Shown here: positions 2,773 through 61,500 of the stretch, piece by piece
Position numbering within the stretch: the first letter of the stretch is position 1
Layout of the letters: each line of letters starts with the position of its first letter
Assembly: GCF_963675165.1 (NCBI RefSeq)
Contig: NC_087390.1
Location: 1,755,501-1,819,500, forward strand
DNA: 64,000 nt
Direction: 5' to 3'
Origin: Halichondria panicea
Taxonomy: Eukaryota > Porifera > Demospongiae > Suberitida > Halichondriidae
Notes under the pieces: model-generated
Databases searched by the model: none
What the model was told of the DNA's origin: nothing
What the model saw: the letters and a program-made list of their open reading frames with translations, nothing else
Program-made: the position numbers and the translations under genes

Positions 2773-4338
2773 ATGAGACAAACTATATAATCTACGAATG
2801 AAGGCAGCCCTCTGATATCAAGGAATGGCTGCAAGTGCAAGTACAGAGTGAGGTAGTTCTATTCCAAGGGAGCCTTTCTTATTCTGGTCTGGATTATGCT
2901 GTTGACTCTATAGCCTGTGTATCAGTCTCTCATGTATTTTATGAGTTCCATCAACAATATGATGTCAATTTTGTAATTTCGAAATGGCTACTTGCTATCC
3001 CAATTGTGTTTGGTTTGTTTGGAGCTGTTTTCTCAGAATGGCTAGCCGACGCTAAGCTGGGGAACTACAGAGTGATGAAATACAGTTTTGTGCTGTTGTT
3101 CCTCGTATACTTGCTTTCTAGTGCCTTCACTATAGTTCCTGACATTACTCATTACGTGTATGTTGTGAGTGTCTTGTATTGCATAGGTGGGAGTCTCTTT
3201 ATAGTAGCTGTGGTAGCATGCTCTGTTACCTCACTACAACTAGGCCTGGATCAGATGCCTGATGCTTCATCTTCCAATATCACTAGTTTTATTGCCTGGT
3301 TTGTATTCAGTATCTATGCTGGTGTTTGGATCCCTACTGTTGCCGATTTGCCCATTACTACATGTAGTAGTCGATTATCGTACTGGGTTACCCAACTTTA
3401 CAGTTTGCTGCCATCTTTGTGTATGAGTGTTGTTTTTATTCTTGACTTTTTCCTAGCTAAAAAATGGCTGATAATTGAGCCAAAGTCACCTCAGTCCCTC
3501 AAAAACATCTACCGTGTTCTCAAGTTTGCTGCCAAGCACAAAGCTCCCCTCAATCGCAGTGCTCTCACATACTGGGAGGAAGACATACCTTCAAGAATGG
3601 ACCTGGGAAAGTCGAGATATGGTGGACCATTCACTACAGAGCAAGTTGAAGATGTGAAGACCATCCTACGTTTGTTACCCCTCTGCTTAACGCTATGGCT
3701 TTTTGGGTGCTCACTTGCAATATTCCATCCACCATCTTATGCTGTTGTTAATCCTCTTGATTGGGATTGTTATGTTTCAAAGTTTTTGTCCTTGTTCATA
3801 TATCACCAATACTGGTGTGGTATGGTTTGGACTGTCTTTTATGAGTTTGTGCTATACCCAGTGATACGTAACAGGCTTCCCAGCATTCTTAGAAGAATTG
3901 GGATAATTTCTCTCTTCATCACGGCTCTCAGTATTGTGTTTCTAATTCTGAAACTATTACAAAATAATGAAGGTGATTTAGTTGCAATCAAGTATGTTAC
4001 AATCATTTTAAATTCAATTTCTCAGGGTTTGCTCACAATGTTGCTTGCTAGTACCATGATGGAGTTAGTTTGTGCTCAAGCTCCATACAACATGAGAGGA
4101 TTGTTTGGAGGGTGTATGGTGTTGGTGTTGTTATCAGCTCTTATATTATTGGCAAGTTTCCTCCATCGATCACATTAACAATATATGGGGTTAGAGTAGG
4201 CATCAGTCTGCTTGGATTCATCCTGTACTGCCTCCTGGCTCGCTGGTACAAGAGGAGAGTTAGAGACGAGGACTACAATGCACACAGAGTGGTGGAGGAG
4301 GTCTATGATATCGATACTTGTCGGTGAGCACTGACTAA
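2773..4338 (+). pseudogene. POT/PTR2 transporter copy P1, broken
   Basis: The sequence aligns with the intact transporter copies from the MRQT start to the YDRYLS tail, but it is disabled. There is a TAA five codons after the start, TGG->TAG in the N-terminal RVRWFYS motif, a 2-bp CT duplication near 2912 that shifts the frame, a 2-bp TA insertion near 4152 after the ALL(I) segment, and a 2-bp AT insertion near 4311 that garbles the YDRYLS tail. A 447-codon open stretch in the middle keeps most of the membrane segments, so most of the lesions are probably recent. Confidence 0.85.
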
Positions 4339-4434
4339 ATTTAGTTCTGATACGTTTTGTCGTTTTGTTGATCATGCATCTTCAGAACAAATTGGTTTTA
4401 TACGTGCGCATGTTAACTAATAATTATAACCAAC

Positions 4435-4593
4435 GGCGTATAAAAGAAGAGAGGGCATGCAACAGCAAAAGAGCCGAGAATTTCTATTTTTAGCACTTCA
4501 TGCAAATTCACACATTCCTCTGCCCACGTTTGAATCCTGCTAGCTACGTGTACTAGATAGTGAGTTGCATGCCCTCTCTTCATCTATACGCCC
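4435..4593. mobile_element. MITE family M1, copy 1
   Basis: A 159-bp element whose ends are inverted repeats of about 28 bp: GGCGTATAAAAGAAGAGAGG on the left, and the complement, including GCATGCCCTCTCTTC and TATACGCC, on the right. A related copy lies at 9987-10143. There is no coding capacity. Both copies contain a central TTTTTAGCAYTTCATGCA block. Confidence 0.75.
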
Positions 4594-8047: not shown

Positions 8048-9251
8048 ATGATACAAACTAACTCTATGAGCGGAGGCAGCTCTCTGTATATAGTATCAAG
8101 GAATGGCTGCAAGTGCAAGTACAGAGTGAGGTGGTTCTATTCCAAGGGAGCCTTTCTCGTTTTGGTTTGAGTTATGCTGTTGACTATATCTTATATATCA
8201 GTGTTTCATGTGTTCCATCAACGATTGGTGTCCATTTTGTATTTTCAAAATGGCTACTTGCTATCCCACTTGTGTTTGGTTTATTGTTGGGAGCTGTTTT
8301 CTCAGGATGCATGGCTAGCCGACGTTATTAATCTGGGGAACTACAAAGTGATGAAATACACTGTTGTTCCTCCTTTGTTTGCTTTCTAGTGCCTTCACCC
8401 TAGTTCCTAACATTGCACATTACGTGTATGTTGTGAGTGTCTTGTATTGCATAGGTGGGAGTCTCTTTCTAATAGCTGTGGTAGCGTGCTTTGTTACCTT
8501 ACTACAACTTGGCCGCCTCATGCTTCATCTTTTATGTATGAGGCCTTTATGTATGAGTGTTGTACTTATTCTTGACTTCCTTCTAGCTAAAAAATGGCTG
8601 ATACTTGAGCCAAGCTTACCTCAGTCCCTCAAAACCATCTACTGTGTTCACAAGTTCGTTGCGAATATGAAACGTTGTTTTGAATTGTTACGTTTCAAGG
8701 CTTCTGGTCTTTTTCACATACAATTCTTTGTGGTGTGGTATGGTTTGGACTGTCTTGTATGAATTTGTGATCTATTCTGTGGCATGTATCCTTCTTCCCA
8801 GCATCCTTAGGAAAATTGTAATTGTTTCTTTCTTCATAACGGCTCTTAGTATTGTGTTTGTAATTCTGGAACTAGTACACTACTATCATAGTGATTTAGT
8901 GGCAGTCGATTATGTCATTGAAATTATACATTCAGTTTCTCAGGGTTTACTCGTAACGTTGCTTGTTACCAACATCCTAGAGTTAGTTTGTGCAAGCTCC
9001 ATACAACATGAGAGGATTGTTTGGAGGTTGGATGACATTTGTGACAATCTCTTCTTTTATTATCAGCGATTTTGCTCCGTCAAACAGCACATTATATATG
9101 GGGTTAGAGTAGGCACCATGCAGTCTGCTTGGATTCATCCTGTACTGCCTCCTGGCCACTGGTACAAGAAGAGAGTTAAATACGAGGACTATACAATGCA
9201 CACAGAGTGGTGGAGGAGGTCTATAATCGATACTTGTCAGCTCGGCATTGA
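8048..9251 (+). pseudogene. POT/PTR2 transporter copy P3, heavily degraded
   Basis: Homology runs from a mutated MIQTNS start to the SARH stop, but about 350 bp of the middle (the region encoding the SNITSFIAWF segment and the long cytosolic loop) is missing. There is a TGA at 8168-8170 just after FLVLV, a CATG insertion at 8310-8313, a rearranged ADAKLGNY motif, a TGCA insertion at 9119-9122 and a TA insertion near 9188. The 3' part resembles the fragment at 52289-52632 more closely than the intact copies, which marks an older sub-branch of the array. Confidence 0.8.
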
Positions 9252-10143: not shown

Positions 10144-10190
10144 TTGGTACAACTATGTCAAAATAAAATCATAGAATTATATTTTGTGTA

Positions 10191-13144: not shown

Positions 13145-13153
13145 AGTCAATAG

Positions 13154-14685: not shown

Positions 14686-15478
14686 CAACTACATTTATTT
14701 CGTTATACGATTTTTTGCGATATCATTGTTATTATCTTTGTTTTTGTTGATCTTGCATGTTCAGAACACTGTGTGTTGGTTATAGACGTAACAATAACTG
14801 TTATTTCAACAGTGCTTACACACCTATGTTTGTCAATGCACACCTGTACAGTTTGGGCATTTCTCATTACGTGTATGTTGTGAGAGTATTCGTACATCAT
14901 ATGGGTGTGGTTTTTTTACGTTACATGCAGTGGGGTAGTTGTATGTCTGTTTGTCCGCATATTCGATTCTGCATGAGTCTGCTCACCTGGATACAATATA
15001 GCGTGCGTTTACAGAATGTTAACACATTAGTTTTATTAAAGTTCATAAAAGCGACAAAAGCTAAGAAATTTACTTTTTAATTGGCTACTATTATAAAGCA
15101 GTATAGCTAGATAGTGTGCATGCAGCTTTGATTCGAGGCACTTTACTACACATACGCTATTACCCCACATGGATACCTATTTTGTTATCATGGGAAGAGA
15201 CTAGCTCCAGGCTTATATGCTGGCTCTAGATAAGATCCTCACCAACTCTATGGCCAAGACAACGACGGCCTTGGAGCATCCTGGTCTCCTCTGAAGCGCG
15301 TGGCCCACAAGTTTCACATGTGTGATGTCTGGATTACTATTCAAACCATCTTTGAGCCCAAAGTGCACCCTATAACCCTCCTAAAGATGATACTGTGAGC
15401 CTCACTCCAGTTCCACTTCATGTTACCTTGGTGTCTTAATGTAACAATCCAGGCCTTCTTCAATTGCTTGCTCTTCTG
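14686..15478. repeat. Segmental duplication of 32331-33238 (transporter 3' flank without its gene)
   Basis: The stretch begins with the same ACGATTTTTTGCGATATC flank that follows the intact transporter P9 and runs through the same block to GATCTAtaGTCCGGGGC. No transporter precedes it, so the gene appears to have been lost while its flank stayed. The copies differ by many palindromic micro-insertions (15119-15124, 15201-15206, and 32955-32963 in the partner). A TCACATGTGTGATGTCTGG block could be an old coding fragment on the - strand, but it was not identified. Confidence 0.7.
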
Positions 15479-15504
15479 TGATCTATAGTCCGGGGCCACT
15501 TTTT

Positions 15505-17308: not shown

Positions 17309-17575
17309 ACGCCAGTATCTGCAGCGTATAAGATTGGCATGACCGATGAATTGCTTGACACAAAATTGTTGGAGTTCCAACGCTGACAGTCTACTGCAAA
17401 ACAGCCCCACCCCACTACTGCTGCAAAGAAACAGCCCCACCCCCCTACTCAGTGTAACTGCTGCTTGAACAGCCCTCCACGGTGGTCTATCCTTGGCCTC
17501 ACAACCAAGCCAAAGAAGCTCGCCTCTACACTGCTGCAAAACAACTCAAGCCCCCATCAAAAGAGCCGCTTCTAG
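17309..17575 (+). pseudogene. Candidate C-terminal exon relic, unidentified
   Basis: After a pyrimidine-rich CTTCTTTCTTCTAG acceptor, one frame reads TPVSAAYKIGMTDELLDTKL, hits a TGA, then continues open for 62 codons of a Pro/Gln/Lys-rich tail to a TAG. The tail frame (RWSILGLTTKPKKLASTLLQ, ending KSRF) is also open in the duplicate at 19315-19480 with few replacements, which favours a once-coding exon. The family is unknown. A proline-rich stretch at about 57917-58036 might be something similar. Confidence 0.3.
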
Positions 17576-17994
17576 TGCTATGGTGAAACAGAATTGACAT
17601 GCATCGAGGACTAGGTCTAGGAACATCCACAAAATGAACCTTGCATGGACAATTTTAAAACCTGCATGGTTCTTACTTCGCTACTTGTTATTTCTCATGA
17701 TAATTATTATAATTATTTGTCTAATGCCAGAGGGGCGTTTTGCGGTTAGTGCATTATGACTTTCAGCAGTGCGTTATGCTGCATATTGCACTTAGCAACA
17801 ACGTAGCAACGGGATATAAAGAGAGTTTATATCATGTTGTCAGGTAACAACGGTGTAATAAAAGTCATACATTCCCTTTAGCTAGTGTTATATTATTTTT
17901 GTTACACAGTCGCGTAGCCTTGAGGCATGATTTGATAAGAGGTTGTCGTGATATAAATTATAAAACACATAATTATAGCATGAGAATCCCCGTA

Positions 17995-18035
17995 AATATA
18001 CAGGCAACTTGCCCTCGTACTTGTGCCTGTATATT
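17995..18035. repeat. 41-nt hairpin H, copy 1
   Basis: Perfect 12-bp arms AATATACAGGCA / TGCCTGTATATT surround a 17-nt loop. Identical hairpins occur at 19077-19117 and 19946-19986. Confidence 0.8.
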
Positions 18036-18240
18036 GTGTAAAACACTCGGTCTCACTATATCTATTGTATTATATATCACTATTAATTGTTTCTAAACAG
18101 TTTGTCAACAATTATTGACACTTATAGTTCAATGCTTTTTGGGCTTGTATTAACAATCGATGGCAGATACGAAAACTGAAACCCACTCTCACTTTTAATA
18201 GCAACGTGACTATTATTATAATGAGCATTTAGGGAAAGTG

Positions 18241-18983
18241 TTGCATTTTGATCTCTGAGATCAAAAGAAACACTGTGCCAATATCTGCCATATGGCACAG
18301 TTCAGATGGTTAACTGCTGAAGTTACCTAAAGCCCACCCTCCACCCAGTAACCTGATCGAAACGATCCCCTTCTATTAATAATTATAGTTTTATAGTATA
18401 ACACTGTTGCAGTACTCAGTGGTAGGCAGGAAACGTTTTTCATGCGTCTGGTGCATTCCACAGCCGCCACAAGTAGTTGCAAACTAGTTGTCTTATAAAA
18501 GGAGTGATGTGTACACGGAAAGGAATGCAACAAATCAGTTGTTACACAGCTCACTCATGCGCACATTGGATATATTGGCCTTGGCCTAACTCGTGCATGT
18601 GTCACAACTATTACATGAATCACTCAATGCAATAATTATTTAGATATAGTAGATTGTACAAGTGTGCATCTGTGCATAGGCCCATGCACTGCTAGAATTT
18701 ATAGTTTTGCAATAATTATTGTTTGTAACATGCTCAAGATTGACTAGGTCACATAGGATTCATCAATCATCACTCTTAAAGTCCAGAACTCATGTTATTA
18801 CATAACCAAACACAGCTATTATGTAACATTGTAAGCTATTACAATAACCATTATACTATACACTGTTGCAGTAGATATTACTTGCTCTCTGCTACTATAG
18901 TTATAGTATAAGTAGCAACATAATTATATACATGCATGTGTGTATAAGTAGCAACATACATGTGTATAATGTGTGTGTATGTT
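18241..18983. other. Spacer with small palindromes, no gene
   Basis: TTTTGATCTCTGAGATCAAAA near 18248-18268 and CTGTGCCA...TGGCACAG near 18272-18301 are adjacent small hairpins. From about 18560 the sequence parallels 20180-20530, the 5' flank of transporter P5. No coding sequence was recognised. Confidence 0.45.
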
Positions 18984-19299: not shown

Positions 19300-20170
19300 A
19301 ACCCTAACCCACCCCACTACTGCTGCAAAGAAACAGCAGCCCCACCCTCCTACTCAGTGTAAATGCTGCTCAAACAGCCCTCCACGGTGGTCTATCCTCG
19401 GCCTCACAACCAAGCCAAAGAAGCTCGCCTCTACACTGCTGCAAAACAACTCAAGCCCCCAGCAAAAGAGCCGCTTCTAGTACTATGGTGAAACAGAATT
19501 GACATGCATCACGAGGACTAGGTCTAGGAACATCCACAAAATGAACCTTGCATGGACAATTTTAAAACCTGCATGGTTGCAAAGAAGAAACTCCAGCAGT
19601 ACTGAACATTCCTGCATGCATGGCTGGACTTACTTCGCTACTTGTTATTTCTCATAATAATTTTATTTGTCTAATGCCAGAGGGGCATTTTGCGGTTAGT
19701 GCATTATGACTTTCAGCAGTGTGTTATGCTGCATATTGCACTTAGCAACAACGTAGCAACGGAATATAAAGAGAGTTTATATCACGTTGTCAAGGTAACA
19801 ACGGTGTAATAAAAGTCATACATTCCCTTTATCTAGTGTTATATTATTTTTGTTACGCGGTCGCGTAGCCTTGAGGCATGATTTGGTAAGGGGTTGTTGT
19901 GATATAAATTATAAAACACATAATTATAGCATGAGAATCCCCGTAAATATACAGGCAACTTGCCCTCGTACTTGTGCCTGTATATTGTGTAAAACACTCA
20001 GTCTCACTATATCTATTACTTAATTGTTTCGATAAACAGTTTGTCAATAAGAATTATTATTATTGACACTTATAGTTTGAGCTTGTAATAACAATTGATG
20101 GCATGTACAAAAACTGAAACCCACTCTCACTCTTAATAGCAACGTGACTATTATTTTAGGGAAAGTGTTG
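19300..20170. repeat. Segmental duplication, copy 2 (partner 17400-18240)
   Basis: Contains the 3' part of the candidate exon (open from about 19315 to the TAG ending at 19480) but not its 5' part. It is preceded by CTAACCCTAACCC at about 19299. The rest parallels copy 1 closely. Confidence 0.65.
19946..19986. repeat. 41-nt hairpin H, copy 3
   Basis: Third copy of the hairpin with AATATACAGGCA arms, in the second segmental duplicate. Confidence 0.8.
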
Positions 20171-20531
20171 AAGTTTCTGAATCACTCATGCAATAATTAT
20201 TTTTATGTTAGATTGTACAAGTGTGCATCTGTGCATATAATATTATAGGCCCATGCACTGCTAGAATTTATAGTTTTGCAAAAATTATTGTTTGTAACAT
20301 GCTCTAGATTGACTAGGTCACATAGGATTCATCAATCACTCTTAAAGTCCAGAACTCATGTTATTACATAACCAAACACAGCTATTATGTAACATTTTAA
20401 GCTATTCCTATTGCCAATCGATAATTATTGCCAATCGATATTGCTTGCTCTGCTACGTATATAATTACAGTATAATTATAGTGCATGTTTTAACAACGGC
20501 CCCTACGTTTGTGTATATGTGTGTGTCTGTT

Positions 20532-22102
20532 ATGAGACAAACTAACTCTACGAATAGAGGCAGTCCTCTGGTATCAAGGAATGGCTGCAAGTGCAAGTAC
20601 AGAGTGAGGTGGTTCTATTCCAATTGCAAGGGAGCTTTTCTCGTTCTGGTCTGGAATATGCTGTTGACTATGGCCTGTACATCAGCATACCAAATGTTTA
20701 ATGAACAACCTTATGTTGACTTTGTAATTCCGAAATCGCTCTTTGCTATCCCAGTTGTGTTTGGTTTGTTGGGAGCTGTTTTCTCAAGATGGCTAGCTGA
20801 CGCTAAGCTGGGGAACTACAGAGTGATGAAATACAGTTTTGTGCTATCGTTCCTCATAAGTTTACTTTATAGTGCCTTCACCCTAGTTCCTGACATTGCA
20901 CATTATACGTGTATATTGTGAGTGTCTTTTATTGCATAGGTGGGAGTCTCTTTGTAGTAGCTGTGGTAGCATACTCTGTTACCTCACTACAACTAGGCCT
21001 GGATCAGATGCCTCATGCTTCATCTTCCAATATTAGTAGTTTTATTGCCTGGTTTGTATTCAGTATCTATGCTGGTGCTTGGATTCCAAATGTTTCCAAT
21101 TTGCCCATTATAATGGGTTCTTTGTATAGTAGTGAATTATCGCACTGGGTTGTCCAACTTTACAGTTTGCTGCCACCTTTGTGTATGAGTGTTGTTCTTA
21201 TTCTTGACTTTCTCCTAGCTAAAAAATGGCTGATAATTGAGCCAAAGTCACCTCAGTCCCTCAAAACCATATACTGTATTCTCAAGTTTGCTGTCAAGCA
21301 CAAGGCTCCCCTCAATCGCAGTACTCTCACATACTGGGAGGAAGACATACCTTCAAGAATGGACTTGAGAAAGTCGAGATATGGTGGACCATTCACTACA
21401 GAGCAAGTTGAAGATGTGAAGACCATCCTACGTTTGTTACCCCTCTGCCTAGCACTATGGCTTCTTGGGTGCTCACTTGCAATCTACCATCCAGTAACTT
21501 CTGCTATTGTTTATCTCCCAGATTGGAAGCGTTATGTTTCAATGCTTTTGGCCCTATTCACATATAACCGTTACTGGTGTGGAATGGTTTGGACTGTCTT
21601 TTATGAGTTTGTGCTATACCCATGGCCAGTGATACGTAACAGGCTTCCCAGCATCCTTAGAAGAATTGGGATAATTTCTCTCTTTATCACGGCTCTCAGT
21701 ATTGTTTTTCTAATTCTGGAAATATCAAAAAATAATTACGGTGATTTAGCTGCAATCAAGTATGTTACAATCATTATAAATTCAATTTCTTTGGGTTTGC
21801 TCGCAATACTGCTCGCTAGTACCATGCTAGAGTTAGTTTGTGCTCAAGCCCCATACAACATGAGAGGATTGTTTGGAGGATGTATGGTGTTGGTGTTGTT
21901 CTCATGTATTATTATTGGCAAATGCATTCCTTCACACAGTGCATTAACAATATATGGGGTTAGAATAGCTATCAGTCTGCTTGCATTCATCCTGTACTGC
22001 CTCCTCGCTCGCTGTTACAAGAGAAGAGTTAGAGACGAGGACTACGATGCACACAGAGTGGTGGAAGAGGTCTATGATCGATATTTGACAGCTCAGTATT
22101 GA
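20532..22102 (+). pseudogene. POT/PTR2 transporter copy P5, one 2-bp frameshift
   Basis: Nearly complete: from the MRQT start to YDRYLTAQY and a normal stop, the only disabling change is a TA insertion near 20906 (CATTACGTG->CATTATACGTG) between transmembrane segments 3 and 4. Two in-frame 6-bp palindromic insertions add residues elsewhere: TTGCAA at 20624-20629 (N-C after FYS) and TGGCCA at 21623-21628 (P-W in the VLYPVIRN motif). It could be an allele of a working gene or a very young pseudogene. Confidence 0.8.
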
Positions 22103-23183: not shown

Positions 23184-24727
23184 ATGAGACAAACTAACTC
23201 TACGAATGGAGGCAGCCCTCTGGTATCAATTAAGGAATAGCTGCAAGTGCAAGTACAGAGTGAGGTGGTTCTATTCCAAGGGAGCCTTTCTTGTTCTGGT
23301 CTGGATTATGCAGTCGACTATATGGCCTGTATTTCGGTGTTTCATGTTTTCCATCATCAATCTGATGTCAATTTTGTAATTCCAAAATGGTTTATTGCTA
23401 TCCCACTTGTGTCTGGTCTGTTGGGAGCTGTTTTCTCAGGATGGCTTGTCGACGCTAATTAAGCTGGGAAACTACAGAGTGATGAAATACAGTTTTGTAC
23501 TGTTATTATCCTTTGTTTGCTTTGTAGTAGTTCCTGGCATCACTCATTACGTGTATGTTGTGAGTGTCTTGTATATATTGCATTGGCGGGAGTCTGTTTC
23601 TAGTAGCTGTACATGTGATAGCATGCTTTGTTACTTCACTACAACTAGACCTGGATCAAATGCCTCATGCTTCATCTTCCAATATCACTAGTTTTATTGC
23701 CTGGTTTGTATTCAGTATCTATGCTGGTGTTTGGATCCCTTTTGTTGTCGATTTGCCCATTTGCCCATTATATCAGATGTTTTTTTAAAACACTCTCCCC
23801 TCCCTCCCTCTCCAAGATGAATAAAGAGTATGTAGCTGTGTTGGAATCCCTGGCCACAGTTAACCACGTCACTACTGGGCCGTATACATCATATATATAG
23901 TTGGGCAACCCAGTATGATGAACGACTGATACACAAAACATCTATGCTGGTGCTTGGTTTCCTTATGTTGTTGATTTACCCATTATATCTGATGCTTTGT
24001 ATATCAGTCATTCGTCATATTGGGTTGTCCAACTTTACTGCTTGCTGCCACCCGACTTAATTAATGTATGAGTATTATTCTTATTCTTGACTTCCTCCTT
24101 GCTAAAAAATGGCTGATAATTGAGCCAAAGTCACCTCAGTCTCTCAAGATACGGTGGACCATTCACAACAGAGCAAGTTGAAAATGTGAAGAATATCCTA
24201 CGTTTGTTACCCCCCCCCCCCTGCTTATCGCTATGGCTTCTTGGGTACTCACTTGCATCCAGTAACTTATGCTAATGTTTATCCTCCAGATTGGAATCGA
24301 AGTTTTTGTCCTTGTTCACATAATTATCACTATTACTGGTGTGGTATGGTTTAGACTGTCTTCTATTGTGCTTTACGTATACCCAGTGATACGTAACAAG
24401 CTAATTCGTTACAATCGTCAGTTTCAAGAGGTATACTCACAATCAATGTACGTTGTTTGCTAGTACCATAATAGAGTTAGTTTGTGCTCAAGCTCCATAC
24501 AACATGAGATGATTGTTTGGAGGGTGTATGGTGTTGGTATTAGCTCCTATTATTGGCCAGTTTTCTCCATCAATCACATTAGCGATTAGAGTAGGCATTA
24601 GTCAGTTTGGATTCATCCTGTACTGCCTCCTGGCTCGCTGTTACAAAAGGAGAGTTAGAGACGAGGACTACAATGCACACAGAGTGGTGGATGAGATCTA
24701 TGATCGATTTGTCAGAGCACCAACTAA
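23184..24727 (+). pseudogene. POT transporter copy P6, rearranged
   Basis: It starts at MRQT and ends near YDRFVRAPT, with many lesions: TTAA insertions at 23230-23233 and 23459-23462, TATA near 23572, ACATGT at 23611-23616, an 8-bp tandem duplication of ATTTGCCC near 23760, an unrelated CT-rich insert at about 23795-23899, a short inverted transporter segment at 23900-23941, a repeated exon portion after it, loss of most of the cytosolic loop, and a long C homopolymer near 24211-24222. It is clearly nonfunctional. Confidence 0.8.
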
Positions 24728-29000: not shown

Positions 29001-29562
29001 TTCAAAGTTTCAAAGCTTCTGCCCTTGTTTACATATCATCATTACTGGTGTGGAATGGTTTGGACTGTCTTTTATGAGTTCGTACTATACCCAGTGATAC
29101 GTAACAAACTTCCCAGCATTATTAGAAGAATTGGAATAATTTTTCTCCTTATCACGGTTTTCAGTATTGTGTTTCTAATTCTGGAACTACTAAAAAGCAA
29201 ATACGGTGATTTAGTCAAAATCTTACAATCGTCTTTAATTCAACTTTTAGAGGATTGCTACAATCTTGCTTTTTAGCGCCATGATAGAATTAGTTTGTGC
29301 TCAAGCTCTATACAACATGAGAGGATTGTTTGGAGGGTGTATGGTGTTGGTGTTGTTATCATCTTTTACTATTGTCACAATTTCTCCATTGAACATTACC
29401 CTAACAATGTGTGCATGGGGTTGTAGTAGGCATCAGTCTGCTTGGATTCATCCTGTACTGCCCCTGGCTCGCTGGTACAAGAGGAGAGTTAGAGACGAGG
29501 ACTACAATGCACACAGAGTGGTGGAGGAGGTCTATGATCGATACTTGTCAGCTCAGCATTAA
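29001..29562 (+). pseudogene. POT transporter 3' half P8
   Basis: It covers TM8 to the C-terminus (from the YHHYWCGM motif to DRYLSAQH). It lacks the first two thirds of the gene, has a short deletion near 29215 that shifts the frame before the IELVCAQA motif, a CATG insertion at 29414-29417 and a 2-bp loss in the ILYCLLAR motif near 29461. It is joined at its 5' end to unrelated duplicate sequence. Confidence 0.8.
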
Positions 29563-32330: not shown

Positions 32331-33238
32331 GACTACATTTATTCCGTTATACGATTTTTTGCGATATCATTGTTATTATCTTTATTTTTGTTGATCTTGC
32401 ATGTTCAGAACACTGTGTATTGGTTATAGACGTAACAATAACTGTTATTTCAACAGTCCTTACACACCTATAGTATTTATACATTCAGTTTGTCTATGCA
32501 CACCTGTACAGTTTGGGCTTGTATTAATGTGGCATGTATTTAAATCAATAATAGCAACAAAATTACATGACCATTAAAGATTTAGTGGAAAGTCGTTGGA
32601 GATCCTGCAGGCATTGCTCATTACGTGTATGTTGTGAGAGTATTCGTACATCATATGGGTGTGGTTTTTTTACGTTACATGCAGTGGGGTAGTTGTGTAT
32701 CTGTTTGTCCGCATATTCAATTCTGCATGAGTCTGCTCACCTGGATACCATATAGCGTGCGTTTACAGAATGTTAACACATTAGTTTTTAAAGTTCATAA
32801 AAGTGACAAAAGCTAAGAAATTTACTTTTTAATTGGCTACTATTATAAAGCGGTAGCTAGATAGTGTGCAGCTTTGATTCGAGGCACTTTACTACACATA
32901 CGCTATTACCCCACATGGATACCTATTTTGTTATCATGGGAAGAGACTCCAGGCTTATAATTATGCTGGCTCTATATTAATTGGATAAGATCCTCACCAA
33001 CTCTATGGCCAAGACAACGACAGCCTTGGAGCATCCTGGTCTCCTCTGGAGCGCGTGGCCCACAAGTTTCACATGTGTGATGTCTGGATTACTATTCAAA
33101 CCATCTTTGAGCCCAAAGTGCACCCTATAACCCTCCTAAAGATGATACTGTGAACCTCACTCCAGTTCCACTTCATGTTACCTTGGTGTCTTAATGTAAC
33201 AATCCAGGCCTCTTCAATTGCTGGCTCTTCTGTGATCT
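32331..33238. repeat. Segmental duplication partner of 14686-15478
   Basis: 3' flank of P9 plus about 0.6 kb of further shared sequence. The comparison with 14686-15478 is the cleanest place to read the palindromic micro-insertions, because most small indels between these two copies have that form. Confidence 0.7.
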
Positions 33239-33564
33239 AGTCCGGGGCTCCCAGTGCATGTTAACATTCTAATGGGACACATGTCTGACCATGCATCACT
33301 GCCATTTCTTAAAGCCTTGAACACAGTCCAGAGAAGATAAGATCAAGCTGTGTTAATAATAAGTCCCAAGTGTAGAAAAAAAAATTTGTAGAAATTGGAT
33401 GCACTTTTGGATGGAAGAAAAATGCCGGAAACTTTCCACACATGTGCATGCACATTCTTAGTTTTTCACACACTGATACAAATTAATAGTGTAGGAAACT
33501 TTTCTGCATTTCTTAGAATCATCACAACAAAAGTGTAGTTCCTACAATTGTCAAAAAGTGCACT
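33239..33564. other. No gene recognised
   Basis: Unique-looking sequence with an A-run near 33378 and no convincing open frame. It lies between two duplicated blocks. Confidence 0.4.
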
Positions 33565-35698: not shown

Positions 35699-36593
35699 TT
35701 GACTCCCGTTACACGATTTTTTTTCGATATCATTGTTATTATCTGTGTTTTTGTTGATATTGCATGTTCACAACATTATACTGTGTATAGGTTCTAGTGC
35801 TTATATACACACCTAGTATTTATACACAGAGGTTAATTGTCAATGCACACCTTATAATTATGATCGATGGCCTATAATTATATACCTCTAATAACAAAAT
35901 GATTCGTTGACCATCATGTTTAAGAAAGATGAATGTTGGACTGTACAACTTTTTTTTTGTCTTTGCATGTGTGTGGGTGCGGCATTCAAGAATGTATGTG
36001 TATGACTGTGTTTGTAATTCTGGAACTACTCTACTAAGCATTGAGTTCCGATAACGTATATGTATTAGTTTTATATGTTTGTGTTATCTAGAGACGTAAC
36101 ACATTTAATCAACATGACAGACATGTGTAATTAGTATTAGTGGAGCGTATATACAAAATCATAATTATTTGTGTACCGTTATAATTATTACCAGGTTTTC
36201 CACTTACTGTATAGTTGGAAATTATAACTGAGCATTGGCAACAGACGTGCTCAGCACCTAAACTAAAAATGTATGTACATAAATGTAGTCATAGGTTTAC
36301 TCATAAGCAATGTGGTGAGCATTATACATAAATTATTTGGCGAATGAGACAAGTGGCGGGTGCCCTGTACTGCGTCCACCAGAAATGTCACAGAGAGCAG
36401 ACAGTTGCTAAAATCCCTGCCAATTAATGTTCCCATACGTTCATTTATTCATAATTATATAGGCTACGTCTATTTACTAACCAGGCATCTATTCGAGACC
36501 AGACGTTAATTACACTCACAAATTATTTCTGATAATTAACAAAATCTGCTAAGATACAGTCAGGTATAGTGACCATGCAACATTGTGTACTAT
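35699..36593. other. Flanks of P10 and of the deleted TRAF copy, no gene
   Basis: The left part is a transporter 3' flank; from about 36190 it is the TRAF 3' flank shared with 10445-10759 (GACAAGTGGCGGGTGCC, CTGCGTCCACCAGAAATGTC). There is a homopolymer T run near 35950. Confidence 0.5.
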
Positions 36594-37461
36594 TTAGAGA
36601 GCCTTCACTTTCATAAACAGTCTGAACTTGAGACGGTCGTCTTTGAGGTACTGGGTGTTTGTGTCAACACAGTAACCTAGGCGATCCAGGGGATAGAATT
36701 TGTGTGAGTCGCCAAAAATAGGTTGTTTTCTCTTTCAAAATGTTTGTTTCCGTTCCTGTGTAGTGTCCATGCATGGTCACCAAGCATCATTCTGTAGGAT
36801 AGCTATATACACAGTCTGTTTTGCTATCATCATGGTGTTCATACAAATGTTCCAGCAGCAGATCCTTGTAAAAATTTTGAATGAGAACCCCCACCCTTGT
36901 GCAGTAAACCCTCCACCACTCCAGTGTCAATTGATGGGCTTTGTTTGTTGTTTCGTAATTCGGTGAGAGGAAACTCTTGGCAAGAAAACCCATTTAGCAA
37001 TAACAAATCATTCTGTATCTTCACTGTGTTGGCTTCCATCGTGACCTTTAGATCATTGACCTTCAGTGTGTCAAGGTGGTTTCTAGGTTGTTGCTCTAGA
37101 TCTTGGAACTTAAGTATGGTATCGACTTTAGCATCAAGATTTTCCAATTTGGTAGCAAAATGTGCGTCCAATTGTTGAATTTTAGTATCGATGGTAATGC
37201 CTTGTCTCTGCAAGTCGACTATATTTGCTGGTCTTTCTCCTCCATTTCTCTGAAATGTGCTGTCCACAGCAGTCGGTTTGATGTGGCTCCACCAGAATCT
37301 CAATTAAGAGTAATATATAACTGGACAGTACAAGTCCTTGTCAGGTTGTTCAACAAGGTCGTAGTCAGGTTTAGTTGGCTGGGTGATCTGTTCTGGGGGT
37401 GGGTAGCAACTGGTTCTTGGTTCCTCACAGAGTTAGAACAGTCACTGTTACTGGTAGCCAT
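36594..37461 (-). pseudogene. TRAF-like copy T3, internally deleted
   Basis: It retains the ATGGCTACCAGT start, the first part of the RING (to the TDCCGQHIS region) and the coiled-coil and MATH parts, but the second half of the RING and all TRAF zinc fingers are missing. The junction is near 37243-37250. It also carries a CATG insertion at 36772-36775, a TATA insertion near 36808, a 2-bp insertion near 37222 and TTAA at 37304-37307, so no long frame survives. Confidence 0.8.
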
Positions 37462-41654: not shown

Positions 41655-43563
41655 GGTAGTACTAATGCCATTGTTTGTTACCTCACTACAACTAGGCCTG
41701 GATCAGATGCCTGATGCTTTATCTTCCAATATCACTTTGAAAATGTGAAGACCATCCTACGTTTGTTACCCCTAGCTTTGCTTAACGCTATGGCTTCTTG
41801 GGTGCTTACTTGCAATCTTCCATCCACTAAATTATATATATAATAAAATAATAATAATCGATGCTTTACAGTATGACTTTACATTTACACAAGGTGAATA
41901 GATTGTTGTGCGTCAGAAATTAAACATACTGACAGGAAGTTCCTAGAAGGAACACCTGACTAAATCTACATAAAATGTATACATAATTATACAGTTATAC
42001 AGAGCAACAGGGACAGACTAGGTGATAAGTGCAAATTCTTGATTGATCAAAGCGTTCTAGAAAACTGTCCCAGAAATGTTTGTAGAGTTGATTCTTGATA
42101 GTTGACATCGAGTGAGAGAGATCTATAAAAGGGAGGGTGTTCCAGAGTCTGACCAATCTTTTGAAGTAAAAGTGTCTTGTTGTGTTTGAGCGATGATGAC
42201 CTTTATGAACTAGCTTGTGATTAGACGATAGTCTTGTGTTGCTGGTAGAGAATGATATGAACTCAGTAATGTTGAAGTTGTCTACTGGTTTTTGGAGACA
42301 CCTGACGGCGAATATGACATCTTGCAACTCTAGCCAGTTCATTAGTGGTAAAAGGTCCAGTTTAATGAGGCGACTTTTGTAGTCGAGACTATCAGATCTA
42401 CATGTAAGGTTCATAATAAACTTTGAAGATCTTCTCTGGATTTGTTCCACTTTTGTGATGGCCTTGTGTGTCTGTGGTCTCCACAGTTGCGAACAAAATG
42501 TTAAATTAGATCTAACAAGCGTAGTATAAAGTGTTCTTTTTGTGTGGAGATCATGAGAGCATTGAGTGTTTCTTTTAATAAGGTACAAACAGCTGTAGGC
42601 CTTCGAACATATAGGTTGTTGATATGTTGGTCCCAGGAGAGACTATTCTGGATGGTCACTCCCAGGTCTTTGTGAGAGTCTCTTGTTAAGATTAGCTTTG
42701 AGTCCAAATTGTATAGCGAGTCATGAATGGTTTTACCAAAGTGGAGGTAGACACATTTGTCTAAATTGAGTGATAAGTTCCAGTCCTTGCACCATGTGAC
42801 AAGATGGTCTAGATCAGATTGCAGGTCTGCTTGGTCTTCTGCATTGGCTATTCGCTTCACTAGTTTAGTGTCATCTGCATAGATATATATGGACGAATTA
42901 ACGATTGGAGTGGTGATATCATTGACATATACTAAAAACAACAGAGGACCGAGAATGCTGCCTTGAGGTATATGCTAGTGTTTATCCCCCTGATTTGAAT
43001 TGATATGTTTCAAGGCTTGTGCCCTTGTTCACATATCACCATTTGTGGTGTGGAATGGTTTGGACTGTCTTTTATGAGTTTGTGATCTACCCAGTGATAC
43101 GTAACAAACTTCCCAGCATTATTAGAAGAGTTGGAATAATTTCTCTCTTCATCACGGTTCTCAGTATTGTGTTTCTAATTCTGGAACTACTACAAAACAA
43201 TTACGGTGATAAATTGGATGCAATCAAATATGTTACAATCGTCAATTTCTACTGGTGTGCTCACAATGTTGCTTGCTACCAACATGATAGAGTTAGTTTG
43301 TGCTCAAGCTCCATACAACATGAGAGGATTGTTTGGAGGGTGTATGGTGTTGGTATTGTTATCATCTCTTATTATTGACGAGATTTTTCCATGGAACATC
43401 ACATTAACAATATATGGGGTTAGAGTATAGGCATCAGTCTGCTTGGATTCATCCTGTACTGCCTCCTGGCTCGCTGGTACAAGAGGAGAGTTAGAGACGA
43501 GGACTACAATGCACACAGAGTGGTGGAAGAGGTCTATGATCGATACTTGTCAGCTCAGCAGTG
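41655..43563 (+). pseudogene. POT transporter copy P11, split by a LINE
   Basis: Left piece at about 41655-41835: part of TM4 (FVTSLQLGLDQMPDA), then a deletion joining to the VEDVKTILRLL segment, with an AGCT insertion at 41774-41777. The LINE follows, and the right piece resumes at about 42971 with the SVYPPD segment and runs to DRYLSAQQ. The right piece has a deletion near 43240 and a TA insertion near 43426. The N-terminal third is absent. Confidence 0.8.
41836..42970 (-). mobile_element. 5'-truncated non-LTR retrotransposon (LINE)
   Basis: Reverse-transcriptase remnant read on the - strand: PQGSILGPLLFLVYVNDI at the right edge, the catalytic YADD box, then a C-terminal region ending in the RLVRLWNTLPFID motif typical of CR1/Jockey-type LINEs. 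A frameshift separates two frames (42501-42941 and 41995-42588) and the element is cut off at its 5' end just before PQGS. The 3' end is an ATT-type simple repeat. It is an ordinary host transposon and dead. Confidence 0.85.
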
Positions 43564-46379: not shown

Positions 46380-47293
46380 TAGCACTGAAGGACATGCAGA
46401 GACCACCTCAAGGTGGGGACTGCTGTGGTTTGCATATCATTATAATTTATTCCCTAGGTGCATACAGTGTTTCTGGCTTATAAATGTGTTATATAGTAGT
46501 TGTCCTACATGTAGCTATAGTTATGTTGTTGAGCACTATACCTTACTTTTGATTGTATAGAAAAGGTGATTTTCCCGTGTAGTTGTTGTTGTAATAGAGC
46601 TTGATGAGGTGCTTTCCTATCAATATGTAATAGTGGTTACATTTGACTATACATGTACAGGATAGGTGTATTATTGTATTTTTGGCTCAGTTAATTGACT
46701 TCTTGTGTTTGTAAATAAATTGCATGTACATAATTATGGCTCCATTTTCTCTTTCACACTTCACAGCATTAGGCAACAAATTGTTTCGTGTTCCTGAGAG
46801 ATTTCAAGTGGAGGTGGCCCGGGCTAACACAATACTGGACCAGGAGAGGTGAGGGCAGTGAGGGTGTGACCAACCACACCTCTTCACGAGTTGTCTCAGT
46901 GGATATACACTACATACATGTGCCTTTACGAGTGTCACGTATTATATCATAGTTCATGTGTAATTGGCTGTAACCAGTCTACTTGCTGTTCAGGTCATAA
47001 TTTATAATAGAGATAGAGACATGAGACAGAGACATTTATCTGTATGGTTGCAGTTGTATGTGTATTACTAGCTGGGTCATCTAAAGGCATGCTCCTTGGA
47101 TTCATTTAAGTGCATGGTCGAACGGGTTTTGTTCTTGTGCTTCCACGTATGTATATATGCTCTCTACTATATTTATTCAGTGATTAGTCTAAGAAATTTT
47201 TACTTGTGGCCATGCATAAATTTTGGTATTAAATATAATATATGTATTGAACTGTACAGATATGAGTATGACAACACCATCAACACACTTTAA
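46380..47293 (+). pseudogene. USP40-like exons 11-13, degenerate duplicate
   Basis: The end of exon 11 (KDMQRPPQ) survives at about 46389-46413, exon 12 is intact with both splice sites at 46767-46848 (LGNKLFRVPERFQVEV...), and exon 13 at 47260 reads YEYDNTINTL then TAA. The block is a direct repeat of 47560-48430. CT->CTAGCT and A->ATA insertions distinguish the copies. Confidence 0.7.
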
Positions 47294-47646: not shown

Positions 47647-48429
47647 GTCCCCTCCAGCCCAAGGGCAGTGCTGGTTTGAGTTCAACGACACCCACGTATC
47701 TCCCATCATGGCCAAACAGATGGAGAAAATGTACCAGGGCAAGCAGAGCGCTTACATGCTCTTCTACAGGAAGAAGGACATGCAGAGACCACCTCAAGGT
47801 GGGGACTGCTGTGGTTTGAATATCATTATATTCCCTTTCATACTACTTCACAGCGTTAGGCAACAAATTGTTTGGTGTTCCTGAGAGATTTCAAGTGGAG
47901 GTGACCCGGGCTAACACAATACTGGACCAGGAGAGGTGAGGGCAGTGAGGGTGTGACCAACCACACCTCTTCACGAGTTGGCTCAGTGATTATACACTGC
48001 ATGCATATGTGCCTTTACGAGTGTCACGTATTATACATGTACATGTGTAATGGGCTGTAACCAGTCTACTTGCTGTTCGGGCCATAGAGATAGAGACAGA
48101 GACAGAGACATTTATCTAGCTGTATATGGTTGCAGTTGTATGTGTATTACTGGGTCATCTAAAGGCATGCTCCTTGGAATCATTTAAGTGTATAGTCAAA
48201 CTAATTAGTGGGTTTTATAATTGTACGTGCTTCCACGTATGTATAATTATGCTCTCTATCGTATAGAATAAAATAATTATTCAGTGATTACTTGTGGCCA
48301 TTGATTTTTGTATTATGTATTGAACTTTGCAGATATGAGTATGACATTGCTATCAACACACTTCAACTTATCATTCATTTCTCACTGGAGTTTGTGCTGG
48401 CCAACGGAGCGCTGCAGAGAATTGAAGAG
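47647..48429 (+). CDS. USP40-like exons 11-13, open but detached from exons 1-10
   Basis: Three exons with canonical splice sites and matching phases: 47647-47798 (SPPAQGQCWFEFND..., AYMLFYRKKDMQRPPQ), 47854-47935 after a 55-bp intron (LGNKLFGVPERFQVEV..., ANTILDQER) and 48333-48429 (YEYDIAINTLQLIIHF..., NGALQRIEE). They align with the human USP40 region just after the catalytic domain (QGKESAYMLFYRKSQLQRPP). The first begins with the single base that completes the phase-2 end of exon 10 at 62001, yet it lies 14 kb upstream of it. Either the exons are relics of another gene copy, or the assembly order is wrong. No promoter or first exon was found nearby. Confidence 0.65.
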
Positions 48430-48466
48430 GTGGGTGTAGTTTGTTATGTTACGGGAATACATAATT

Positions 48467-54987: not shown

Positions 54988-55647
54988 TTGATCTGTACAG
55001 TTATAGATACGTATTTTTCATCATAGTTTGTATGTTTTTGTCTATCATGTTTTCAGAACAATTGTGTACGTTAGTTAATTGCCTCATAATTATGATGCTT
55101 GTCAAGCACACTCGCTATATATATACGGTATAATTATTCTTTCTGCGGCTGTTTTAAGTGTCCATTGAAATCTGTTTGCAATAGCGAATAATGATAATTA
55201 CATGTTCAAATAATGGAAACAAAATTTGTTAGTACATTAAACCTCTGTTTAATTGTCAAAAAAAACCCTCCTATATACCACATCCATACAGTGAACATGC
55301 AAATTGATTTTTGAGCTTGTATTAACAATAGACGGAATAAAAATTGAAACCCACTCTCACTCTAATAGCAACGTGACTCGTGACCATTTAGGAAAAGTGT
55401 TGACGCTCCACTAATTTATATTCCTGATTATATGCACCACTTAATTGTACGAGTGTGTATGTGTCTGCGCCCACTTCAAAGATTAATATAGTTTCACTCA
55501 GGAATGCAATACCGGCAATATTATTATAATTATGGAACTGTTGTCAATAGATATTGCTCTCTGCTTTGTACTGCCTATAAATAGTTACAGTATATATAGT
55601 GTTTAACAACCATCCCTATAATTGTATGTATAATATATCTGTTAATT
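54988..55647. other. Flanks between P14 and P15
   Basis: P14 3' flank shared with the sequence after P5, then the 5' flank block (TGACTCGTGACCATTTAGGA at about 55370). No gene. Confidence 0.45.
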
Positions 55648-56041: not shown

Positions 56042-56099
56042 ACTGTCTCTTTTGGTTTATAATTATGTACCCATGCATGTAACTATAATTATTTGTAGC

Positions 56100-57032: not shown

Positions 57033-57151
57033 GTAGGTGTGGTTTGTTATGTTACGGAAATATATAATTATGTAGTTGTACAGTGGAAACCCTAAGTGAA
57101 TCTTTAAATAGAGGCACCTCTAGTAAAAATCTTACGAGCACCCCAGTGCAT

Positions 57152-57549: not shown

Positions 57550-58584
57550 TCAGGACACTCAACCAAGTCCCAACTCAATAGAAGCATATAGAAATTAAAC
57601 TTTTAAATTATGTAGGAGACCACTGTCAACAAACATGTCCATATCGACATTCACTGCGTGCGTACACATACTTTGTGAGACCTACATTTTACCATTTATT
57701 ATTATAGTGGTGCATTATTATATTTGCCGAAAAATGCGAATCAGGTGAGGATCACCAAATAGAAAAGTTGCAAAGACTTCTGGTATTGCGTGATCACTTA
57801 TGATTGATATTTGACAGCTCAGCATTGGCTTTAATTTAGATAGATTATGTATATTTTTCATCATAATTTATTTAAGCAAATGTGGATCAAATTATCTACC
57901 CAATAATTATACTGCCATGCTGCAGCAAGCCCAGCCCTTCCCCTACTCCCAAGGCAACTCCAGTCCCTCCCCACAAGGCTCCATCACCACCACTATCACT
58001 CAAGGTTGCTTCTGCCCCTCTCAATCTGGATCTATAGCAGTCTGAAGGATCTCTACTCTATAATTATAAGAACAGATTTTATAATAGTCTAAGGAACAAT
58101 TTATTTTGTGCAAACAGTTGTATAGTTTAGCAGGCTAGCAGGTAGAGTCAGCAATAATTTTTAGTGAAAAGACTTGAAGTTTATCTAGCAACGTTTCTCG
58201 GACCTTTGTACGTGGGTGTAATGGCTTGTTGTCATAGTTACTTATCTGAGATGAGGGGGCGACTGACTATAAACAGTAGCCACAAAGATGAATTTTGTTA
58301 ACCTCTGCACCATTATTATGCATGAGAGAGACTCTAAATTAGCTACCGCTAGCTAGCTAGCTATAGCCATGCTGCCGTACTATTAAACTGACCAGCTATT
58401 CATTGGCTCCAGCTATATTAAAGAAACTATAAAGACATAAGACAAGTATAATATAATATAAGCAGAGGGCAGCTCAGTAAGTCTGATGTGGATCATTGAT
58501 CTACTATTGTACAATTCCTACAGGGTTGTGTCCATTGCCGACCGATAGTCGACTACCCACCTGATCTCACCCCACACACACACA
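57550..58584. other. Upstream region of the USP40-like gene
   Basis: At about 57798-57835 a transporter 3' tip survives (ATTGATATTTGACAGCTCAGCATTGG). At 57917-58036 a Pro/Ser/Lys-rich open stretch follows a possible CAG acceptor and ends in TAG; it is unidentified. The last 80 bp before the start codon contain CACACACACACA. No promoter element is clear. Confidence 0.4.
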
Positions 58585-61500
58585 ATGCTTGAGGGTCTGT
58601 TTGACGAGGAGACTGTCGAGTATGATGCAAAGTCTGCCACGGCAGGGGGTAACGAGAGCTCACGAGTGCCCCGCCCACCCACCCCCCGGAACAACACGAG
58701 GCTGCATGTGTGGTCTCAGTAACCTTGGTGCCACCTGCTACCTCAACTCATTGTTACAGACTCTGCATTTCACTCCAGAGTTGAGAGGTGAGCCAGTTTT
58801 TATCCTGTTCATAAAAGTTGAGTTTTATAAGTACTGAAGCAATGGGAATTAGCTAGGTGACTTGTGTACATAACTCTATGGATGGTAGTATCCAGTTTAC
58901 TGTTGAGAGTGAATGAACACGACTGAATGCAAGTGAAGGTCATGATGTGACTGAGTGGGCGAGTGGTTGAAGAGCCACGGCTAGGGGAATGGAAGTTGAT
59001 GCTTGTTTTGTGATTCCTAAAAGTTAACTGTGTTTAGTCATACAGCAGCTCTATAAAATTGTGTCAAGGTGGTGTGTGTTGGTTGGCAAGTGGGCAGATT
59101 TCAGTGTTATTGGTTCTCACCTCATGTGTCAGTATCTGTTAGCTCAACAAGTAATGTGCTCTCAATGAACACCACCATTAATGAATCTACCCACTGTACT
59201 GCAGAGGAACTATTCAAACTGACTGAGACAGAGTTGGGCATCTTCTCCACTCAGGAGGGAGCAGACAACTCCACGGTAACCAGGAGCACTATAATTATTA
59301 ACTATTTGCAGTTGTCTAGGAAAAATTAACGCCCTATATAGTGGAACACACACTTTATACAGTGTTTTACGGATGTGGCCTTTGTTGAGAAGTTCTACAC
59401 GAACTATTCATTTGGGACCTGTGGGCTTTTGTTCAGAGGGTGGTCGTTAAGAGAGGTTCCATTGTAGTTTGATTATTGTCATGGCTGCCCTCTGGCTGTT
59501 TAGCACATCTCTGTCTGTCTGTGCTCAGGTGCGAGTGATTCCTGTCCAGCTGCAGAAGTTGTTTGCCAATCTCCTTCTGCTCAACCAGCAGAGTTGCAGT
59601 GTGGACGCTCTCACAAACAGCTTTGGTTGGAGCAACAGTGAGGTATGTGGTTAATGCAATAACAGCATGAATATTGAATATGAAGTAGGGAGCATTGTTT
59701 GTAGAGCAGTGCTGATCCACTGTACAACTATACATCACCGAGGGTTACAAGTGGTACAGCCTTATAACACTCTAAATCTTGCTTTCACAATAATATTATT
59801 AGTGCATTATAATTATTAGTTGTTAACGTACGTATTATAAACAGAAGGTGTATGCCCTAGCTTTGGTAATGTATAGTAATTTCTCCCACTCTCAATCGAG
59901 CCACTCACCACTCGCTTCCCCACTGTCTCTCCCTCCATTCTCAGGAGTTCCAGCAGCACGATGTGCAGGAGTTGAATCGGATACTGTTCAGTGCCATCGA
60001 GTCCTCTTTACTGGGCACCTCAGGAGAGCAGCTCATCTCTAAGCTCTATCATGGTGTCTTTGTGCAACAGGTAAGTAAGTGAGTGTTATAGATATTGCAA
60101 TGTACACAATTAGAACTGGCTAAGTAACAGAATCCTCTATCCTCCACACTTTCCCTTTCTTCCCCACTACCCCCTACTCCCTTTCTGAAGGTACAGCAAT
60201 CTATTTTCCTAACTTCAATTACCCTCTCCTTCCGTCAGATAATCTGTCAGGTGTGTGGCCGTGTGAGTGAAAGGGAACAAGAATACCTAGACCTGGCCGT
60301 AGCCCTCTCCACTAGCCCCACTTTGGAGGGGGTGCTCCAGGAGTCGTACATCGAACAGGAGTTGCTGGAGGGAGCCAACCAATATCGTTGTGAGAAGTGT
60401 GGCAAGCTCGTCGACGCTAAGAGGGTGAGAGTTGCACTCTTAAATGACAAACTACTCGTTCACTGTTGCCATAGTGATGTGCCCAGAATTTTGAAGTGGT
60501 GGCTATTATCATTTTTTGCCTAACCTGTGGTAAACTATATACTATAGGCCTAGAAGGTGGTTAGTACCAACCACCACCGACCAGTGTAGGCACATCACTG
60601 TAGTCTGTTAGAAGAAATTGTGAAGAATATTACAACATTGCTATATATGCCTCAGGGCTGCAAGATTCGGCAGCTGCCACAGATCCTCACGATAGCCCTC
60701 CTAAGGTTTCTCTATGACTACGAGAAGGGTGAGAGATACAAGGTAAGAAACTGGTAGTAGTACAATGTTTGAGCTACTTACTTAAGACCGCAAATTGCGT
60801 AGTTGCTATGTATGGGAAAAGAAACGTTTTACGTGTGCTTATAACTTGGCTGACCGTACAATAGACACATTTCAAGTATTCCAAACTATAACCTCCAGGA
60901 CACTAGCAAATTCAAGTTCCCACTTGAGTTGGAAATGGCCCTCTACTGTGAGGATGGCTCTGTGGGGGGTAGCAGTGTGTACGAGCTGTTCTCGGTGGTC
61001 ATTCACAGTGGCAGCACTCACTCCGGACACTACACTGCCTACATTCGGGACATTGATGGACTTGGAACTTGGGCTTCCCCCGTGAGTCAACCTTATCTCT
61101 GTAGACTGTCCATACATGTACTTTATTATATTATGCCTTTAGTACTTCTACATTCTCATTCGGTGGTTTCATATTCTTGACAATGTTAGGGAGTACCTGT
61201 TGGTACAGTAAGAGTATAATTGTACAGGGAATGCCTATATAAAGGGGCACAACGTTTTGGCCATTATTATACTGAGTTGAAGAGTTGTTTTGTACTTACT
61301 CATTTGAGACCTGGATACCTGGCTTTTATATCACAGCTAGTTGACCCCTCTTCAGTGGTGGAAGAGTTACATTAATTGTAGCTACACATATTACTCCACC
61401 CCCTCCCCTCCCAGGACGAGGAAGTGGTCCAGTTGCCACGGGACCCGGCCTCTGGTAGTGTGGACCTCATTGACTTTGATAACCCTGCCGACCTCATGTT

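Follow-up and report, generated by a model that had tools for sequence, protein, structure and literature searches.

The stretch of DNA analysed here (the window, 64,000 nucleotides) is positions 1755501-1819500 of contig C14 in the 131-Mb, 39-contig genome of the sponge Halichondria panicea. It holds a tandem array of genes for multi-pass membrane proteins, within which small insertions recur that take the form X.rc(X).X, i.e. n bases (X) followed by their reverse complement and then by the same bases again. SLC15A4 is the closest solved relative of the array proteins by sequence (E 2.4e-11, one copy tested), and the three copies tested matched no Pfam family at E 0.001. Large tandem arrays of such SLC15A4-like transporters occupy ~1.27-1.89 and 3.24 Mb of C14 and ~5.33-5.53 Mb of C6. 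Several array copies in the window have broken frames, and one is split at ~41840-42970 by ~1.1 kb with reverse-transcriptase (RT) reading frames and TAT-type flanks. The window also carries an RT element, a TRAF-type zinc-finger gene together with duplicated copies of it, and two copies (17406-18249 and 19308-20176) of a dispersed repeat of ~590 bp.

Four families, all drawn from this one genome, were each aligned to their own consensus: 40 full array copies (the window contributed 8, and another 32 were retrieved from C14 and C6), with window fragments also compared; 74 copies of the dispersed repeat, sampled on contigs C1-C17 and including the two in the window; 35 copies of an element resembling a miniature inverted-repeat transposable element (MITE); and 9 copies of an RT element. 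The four families are unrelated. Array copies were chosen by similarity to one copy, which biases that set toward intact genes, and gaps were called in each copy against the array consensus to set their direction (insertion or deletion). The main counts use gaps of ≤12 bp whose 12-bp flanks contain no other gap and ≤2 mismatches each; earlier, looser calls used 8-bp flanks with ≤1 mismatch each. Events were counted as distinct states relative to the consensus, with polarity judged from rarity among the copies.

Among the new insertions of 4 bases, the majority of those examined are exact X.rc(X).X copies and not random sequence or simple repeats, which points to an unusual error of DNA copying or repair. 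Distinct insertions in the four families numbered 14 at 1 bp, 32 at 2 bp, 25 at 3 bp, 45 at 4 bp, 12 at 5 bp, 15 at 6 bp and 13 at 7-12 bp. Exactly the n=2 form was found in 30 of the 45 at 4 bp: 9/13 in the array, 17/24 in the repeat and, in the two families with small numbers, 2/4 in the MITE-like element and 2/4 in the RT element. These last two ratios come from families at ~96% identity to consensus, so that recent events are included too. Sorted by every form that they fit, the 45 comprise 21 that are X.rc(X).X only, 9 that are also tandem duplications (TGCA>TGCATGCA and similar), 6 that are tandem only and 9 that are neither. At 6 bp the direct-inverted-direct order recurs with n=3 in 3/15 insertions, a small number, all in the window array. 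Plain tandem duplications make up 15/25 insertions at 3 bp and 4/12 at 5 bp. One repeat cluster, at consensus position 398, merges two different events and was counted by its representative, a tandem duplication, which lowers the n=2 total from 31 to 30. Grouping by place, which may merge neighbouring events, gives 8/12 for the array and 18/20 for the repeat at 4 bp.

What chance alone would give was estimated by simulation in the array and the repeat, the two larger families. Random inserts matched in composition and scattered over these sequences take the form in 1.2% (4 bp) and 0.12-0.13% (6 bp) of cases, and real inserts relocated at random do so in 8-11% and 0.5-2.8%; the binomial tail for 30/45 at 1.23% is ~1e-46. 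The earlier note, which had listed such insertions across this locus from the sequence alone, thus pointed to a class that far exceeds composition-matched random inserts. The same code found the form in 0/136 deletions from the four families (for 4-bp events, 30/45 insertions vs 0/8 deletions, Fisher p=0.0006). Under other settings a few deletions did have it: 1/98 (a 2-bp one) in the looser code, and 2 in the repeat with one mismatch allowed. Self-alignment of the window gave X.rc(X).X in 14/46 distinct indel states at 4 bp and 0/36 at 8 bp. Counted as words, X.rc(X).X 6-mers occur 260 times in the window vs 157 (sd 15) in third-order Markov sequence, and 9-mers 46 times vs 14; we do not rely on this raw excess, because a complement-only control pattern reached 51 among 9-mers and paralogues inflate the counts.

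The window sites are collected in Table 1. Eighteen sites with n≥2 had been put forward earlier, and alignment bears out 13 of them (8308, 9117, 15119, 15201, 20621, 21620, 23228, 23457, 23608, 29412, 36770, 41772 and 47068), of which 15119 and 36770 read equally well as tandem duplication of a 4-mer. Two more are weak: 6183 rests on one comparison, and 48116 is a 6-bp gap that needs a second TA duplication alongside. At 16024 and 37302 the alignments do not give the claimed insertion, and 32955, set against its sister copy, is a 4-bp palindromic gain and not X.rc(X).X. Further sites, absent from that list, are 23572 (TA), 24448 (GT), 36574 (CA), 36804 (TA), 47211 (CA), and 17642 and 19549 (both TG). 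Not every window site enters the 30: the flank filter excludes 24448, 29412 and 20484 (24448 and 20484 being X.rc(X).X by eye); 15117, 15201, 36574, 36768, 36804, 47068, 47211 and 48116 belong to window pairs outside the four families; and L024:196 has the form only if one mismatch is allowed. Sequences L071 and L107-L112 enter no count. Two 640-bp copies in the window, 14856-15496 and 32610-33248, are 94% identical, yet four small insertions, each palindromic or of TA, distinguish them (near 15102, 15117, 15201 and 32955), an unusually high load.

Table 1. Insertions in the window that were read as X.rc(X).X, with the separate TA class in the last row
Change	Position in window	Remarks
TG>TGCATG, n=2	8308..8313	
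CA>CATGCA, n=2	9117..9122	neighbouring T>C substitution
TGCA>TGCATGCA	15117..15124	also tandem duplication; lacking in 94% identical copy at 32610
CT>CTAGCT, n=2	15201..15206	
TG>TGCATG within CCTTGCATGG	17639..17648	window copy of dispersed repeat; in common with copy at 19546
TG>TGCATG within CCTTGCATGG	19546..19555	second window copy of dispersed repeat
CAA>CAATTGCAA, n=3	20621..20629	
CCA>CCATGGCCA, n=3	21620..21628	
AA>AATTAA, n=2	23228..23233	
AA>AATTAA, n=2	23457..23462	
TAT>TATATAT, n=2	23572..23578	self-complementary X
TGT>TGTACATGT, n=3	23608..23616	
GT>GTACGT, n=2	24448..24453	adjoins CAAT tandem duplication; single 8-bp alignment gap, read by eye
TG>TGCATG, n=2	29412..29417	
CA>CATGCA, n=2	36574..36579	duplicated stretch; lacking in three related copies
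CATG>CATGCATG	36768..36775	also tandem duplication
TA>TATATA	36804..36809	
CT>CTAGCT, n=2	41772..41777	
CT>CTAGCT, n=2	47068..47073	single sister copy
CA>CATGCA, n=2	47211..47216	
CT>CTAGCT, probable	48116..48121	requires second 2-bp event at 48125
TA>TATA duplication	9190..9193	separate 2-bp class; others near 4142, 20904, 35341, 43426, 52374, 53826

The pattern is real and wider than the window locus. X.rc(X).X insertions were found in the dispersed repeat (C1-C17), the MITE-like family, the RT element and the array on C14 and C6; non-coding repeats are affected as well as genes, which supports the view, already taken in the earlier note, that a mutation process is at work. The event GGTCGATCTA is common to 21 repeat copies of one subfamily on several contigs, GATATATACTT is common to 5 repeat copies, again on several contigs, and the array copies L026 and L027, 45 kb apart, have a CATGCA and a TGCATG event in common. 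Because copies on different contigs share some of them, the events are inherited and are not assembly errors. This sharing, together with the 0/136 deletions, tells against ordinary variation, whether through slippage that adds tandem copies in AT-rich DNA, through artefacts of alignment or through errors in the assembly; we give this explanation hardly any weight. It could draw on the 9/30 events that are also tandem duplications and on a 2-bp class whose fitting members are all of that kind, yet X.rc(X).X is the sole fit for 21 of the 45 4-bp insertions, CA or TG serves as X in 16/30, with units made purely of A and T in 10/30, and slippage, with tandem-only cases at 6/45, is insufficient. 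For the 4-bp class ordinary variation is refuted; TA duplications it may explain.

At 2 bp the picture is different. Although 20/32 insertions fit X.rc(X).X, all 20 are also duplications of TA, AT or (once) GC, and none of the 32 is T->TAT or A->ATA outside a TA/AT dinucleotide; n=1 is thus not demonstrated, since every fitting insertion also reads as a dinucleotide duplication. The same holds in the window, where ten n=1 sites had been proposed: eight duplicate a pre-existing TA (near 4142, 9190, 15102, 20904, 34113, 35341, 43426 and 53826), 48125 is a probable case and 15459 is a 1-bp difference. The recurrence noted at first stands in large part for n≥2 and is not supported for n=1. TA duplications form a separate, plainer class, possibly with slippage as its source.

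The events have a preferred sequence. CA or TG makes up X in 16/30 n=2 events, vs 16.3% of dinucleotides (p=3.5e-6); the remainder are AA/TT (6), TA/AT (4), AG/CT (2), GA/TC (1) and AC/GT (1), and each of the three n=3 units (CAA, CCA and TGT) has CA or TG inside it. Repair of deaminated methyl-CpG, by long-patch base excision repair, would explain CA/TG if it were the initiator, and the consensus sequences are poor in CG (0.015), as in methylated genomes; in the aligned copies, CG was nevertheless found in 1.4% of 839 instances at CA/TG event sites vs 2.1% of 20103 at CA/TG sites of the consensus overall. Without CG enrichment at event sites this initiator is not supported, and we consider it very improbable.

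The variety of X bears also on excision footprints of DNA transposons, where flank hairpins would combine with a 2-3 bp target duplication. A MITE does sit at a TA of the repeat (in L070), with 1603 first-look candidates genome-wide, and the same repeat site (consensus ~425-428) has both MITE insertions and TA duplications. A footprint would be expected to show a constant target-site length and a residue of the element's end, whereas the events cover several dinucleotide classes (CA/TG, AA/TT, AG/CT, GA/TC, AC/GT, TA/AT) with a middle that always matches X, so that no fixed element end is left. Occupied sites in the short stretches searched are few as well: 4 insertions of ≥200 bp (3 independent) vs 26 exact 4-bp events in array and repeat, a search of stretches of ~1.7 and 0.6 kb with several copies partly aligned, in which larger inserts would be missed. 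The flanks of these 4 large inserts are TA, ATA or TAT only. Footprints, one of the sources first suggested, are accordingly improbable. Separately, L070:405-640 and L061:394-600 place two MITE-like families at one TA site of the dispersed repeat.

Exactness is the other property of the events. Substitutions within 2 bp of X affect 6/201 sites and those further out 21/591 (33 events); with no excess beside X, error-prone synthesis around the events was rejected. The 49 insertions of 3-12 bp that belong to neither the exact nor the tandem class have no inverted-repeat excess (mean stem 2.90 vs 2.59 in random inserts, p=0.20), so the event is exact and not a generic fold-back, which was rejected too. 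Small numbers of partial forms, written Y.p.Y, where p is the reverse complement of part of Y, occur in the repeat: in AGT.AC.AGT, GGTT.AA.GGTT and CCCA.TGG.CCCA p copies only the last bases of Y, and by our own reading ACTA.T.ACTA and CAGC.G.CAGC are compatible with either end of Y. A side class, ATAT>ATAATTAT, is a 4-bp palindromic gain centred in ATAT, related to X.rc(X).X yet distinct from it. Five cases are clear (24321, 55087, 32955, one in the repeat and one in the RT element), 55087 and 32955 each coming from one pair, and a sixth, MITE-like, requires an extra substitution; they lie at window positions 24317-24330, 32952-32966 and 55081-55097, and in L046 near 517, L147 near 629 and L137 near 76.

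Two further sources had been suggested, hairpins whose opening leaves P-nucleotides and priming on folded-back DNA. Either may be at work, though both predict many inexact forms, and inexact forms are not in excess. In palindromic end joining, 5' staggers of 2-3 nt would be filled in, leaving X at both ends; the ends would form hairpins whose opening leaves P-nucleotides, rc(X), at one end or at both; and rc(X) overhangs, if present at both, could anneal to give X.rc(X).X. P-nucleotides, 1-3 bases long and inverse repeats of germline sequence, are the best-known short inverse copies (PMC3528771). Such joining calls for an inverse copy of 1-4 bases adjoining its template, as is seen here with n=2-3; n=2 as the main size is explained well, and plain tandem duplications (15/25 at 3 bp and 4/12 at 5 bp) are what staggered-end fill-in would give. 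The difficulty is that the hairpin offset would have to equal the stagger every time, when one-sided or unequal additions should outnumber the exact form. These are rare: an inverted copy alone is the sole strict fit for 1/11 3-bp and 0/12 4-bp insertions in the array and for 0/11 and 1/20 in the repeat, and the 49 other insertions are without inverted-repeat excess. Flank loss, typical of end joining, was not seen in the counted events, although heavily trimmed ones would fail the flank criteria, and the CA/TG preference is left unexplained. As to the hairpin-opening nuclease on which such joining would depend, four matches to SNM1-family (DRMBL) sequences were found in the genome, which says nothing about their use. 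We regard palindromic end joining as unlikely, though deserving of serious attention.

The form of the insertions, their excess, their spread over unrelated families and contigs, their inheritance, exactness and CA/TG preference are observations; for their origin we tentatively prefer a template switch onto a flap, by which a germline mutation process would insert exact micro inverted triplications, and we hold this with rather less than even confidence. At a nick or gap, the polymerase would re-copy n bases and displace the old strand, which becomes a 5' flap (2-3 nt) carrying those very bases. It would then switch template onto the flap at the junction and copy to the flap's 5' end, adding rc(X), after which the new 3' end could be sealed to the flap or could fold into an X.rc(X) hairpin and re-copy X. 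Small inverted triplications (SIT) have been ascribed to a plus/minus/plus template switch, of which the whole would be a miniature version. The main constraint is that the three copies are equal, without spacer or loss, all of which an n-base displaced flap would yield naturally: because one flap would fix the length of every copy, their equality, the lack of flank loss and the small n would be explained. Partial forms that copy only the last bases would be expected if copying begins where the flap joins the duplex and ends prematurely. Template switching onto a displaced strand has been proposed for a polymerase in vitro (PMC4176320), and polymerase delta at Okazaki nicks in vitro works with flaps of one or two bases, although the review that says so holds that such flaps cannot be the whole story in vivo (PMC6409922).

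Several points weigh against the flap switch. Its steps are deduced from sequence, and a zero-loop hairpin or the ligation of a blunt arm would be sterically awkward. It predicts n=1 events (T>TAT anywhere), and none was seen among the 2-bp insertions of the four families; the CA/TG preference (16/30 vs 16.3%) has no role in it. A strand-symmetric process should give both polarities of partial forms, and no partial insertion was labelled as of the opposite polarity, with small numbers and a code that tests one polarity first. Finally, FEN1, which is linked to the larger inverted triplications, is present with its catalytic motifs.

The search for FEN1 took two forms. The Pfam XPG_N domain gave 5 matches from 18 candidates in the genome with no FEN1 among them; we take these to be XPG-, GEN1-, EXO1- (two pieces) and asteroid-like genes. 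A query with the whole FEN1 protein found the gene on contig C12 (G000:C12:642570-644698), divided into many small exons and encoding the catalytic motifs and a tail like a PCNA-binding one. The exon splitting is the likely reason why the domain search missed it, and the miss is a warning for claims of absence in this genome. With FEN1 present, its loss is not the cause of the insertions, and that candidate was rejected.

Slippage and tandem duplication normally prevail among small insertions, and in human and other genomes tandem duplications generally dominate at the 4-bp length. No report of an X.rc(X).X class at 2-3 bp was found in the literature, most subscription journals lying outside the search. 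It is conceivable, and we are close to undecided on it, that a germline pathway of replication or repair not described before, or a familiar one that employs an unusual enzyme, makes exact spacer-free inverted triplications of 2-3 bases at CA/TG-rich sites, is the main source of 4-bp insertions genome-wide and breaks the frames of array genes. Where such an exact stamp prevails at one insertion length, a step of template switching or end joining that usually happens too seldom to be followed at base resolution becomes directly accessible, and X.rc(X).X with n=2-3 is a signature that can be counted elsewhere, be it in the genomes of other species, in mutation-accumulation lines or in cancers. 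Tetranucleotide palindromes, TGCA and CATG among them, can moreover arise by mutation instead of being binding sites.

Among known systems, staggered breaks give 2-4 bp tandem duplications, in which X is duplicated with no inverted middle; the events here differ by that inverted middle, and plain duplications are a minority at 4 bp (6/45). P-nucleotides in V(D)J joining come from programmed somatic breaks, and beyond them X is not repeated in direct orientation. They resemble the present class as inverse copies of 1-3 bases adjoining their template (PMC3528771). Here, unlike there, X is duplicated every time and the events are germline and dispersed. Short-range template switches in great apes are said to vary in offset and length. 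They too involve reverse-oriented copying, often create perfect inverted repeats and are mistaken for ordinary small changes, but they appear as mutation clusters in pairwise alignments (PMC7954356), whereas here the offset is zero, the return exact and the outcome one insertion with no extra substitutions. SIT have median lengths of 148/160/148 bp, spacers of ~30 bp and junctions of 6 bp, and their flanking duplications are reported down to 7 bp; they rise in rad27 yeast and occur also in tumours, where FEN1 mutations are enriched (PMC13334657). The insertions of the sponge differ from these ~150-bp, spacer-bearing structures in having n=2-3 and no spacer, and in occurring where a FEN1 gene is present, while SIT are raised by loss of FEN1/Rad27; they are like SIT in their DUP/INV/DUP order, for which the proposal is a switch from an Okazaki flap followed by a return to the original template (PMC13334657).

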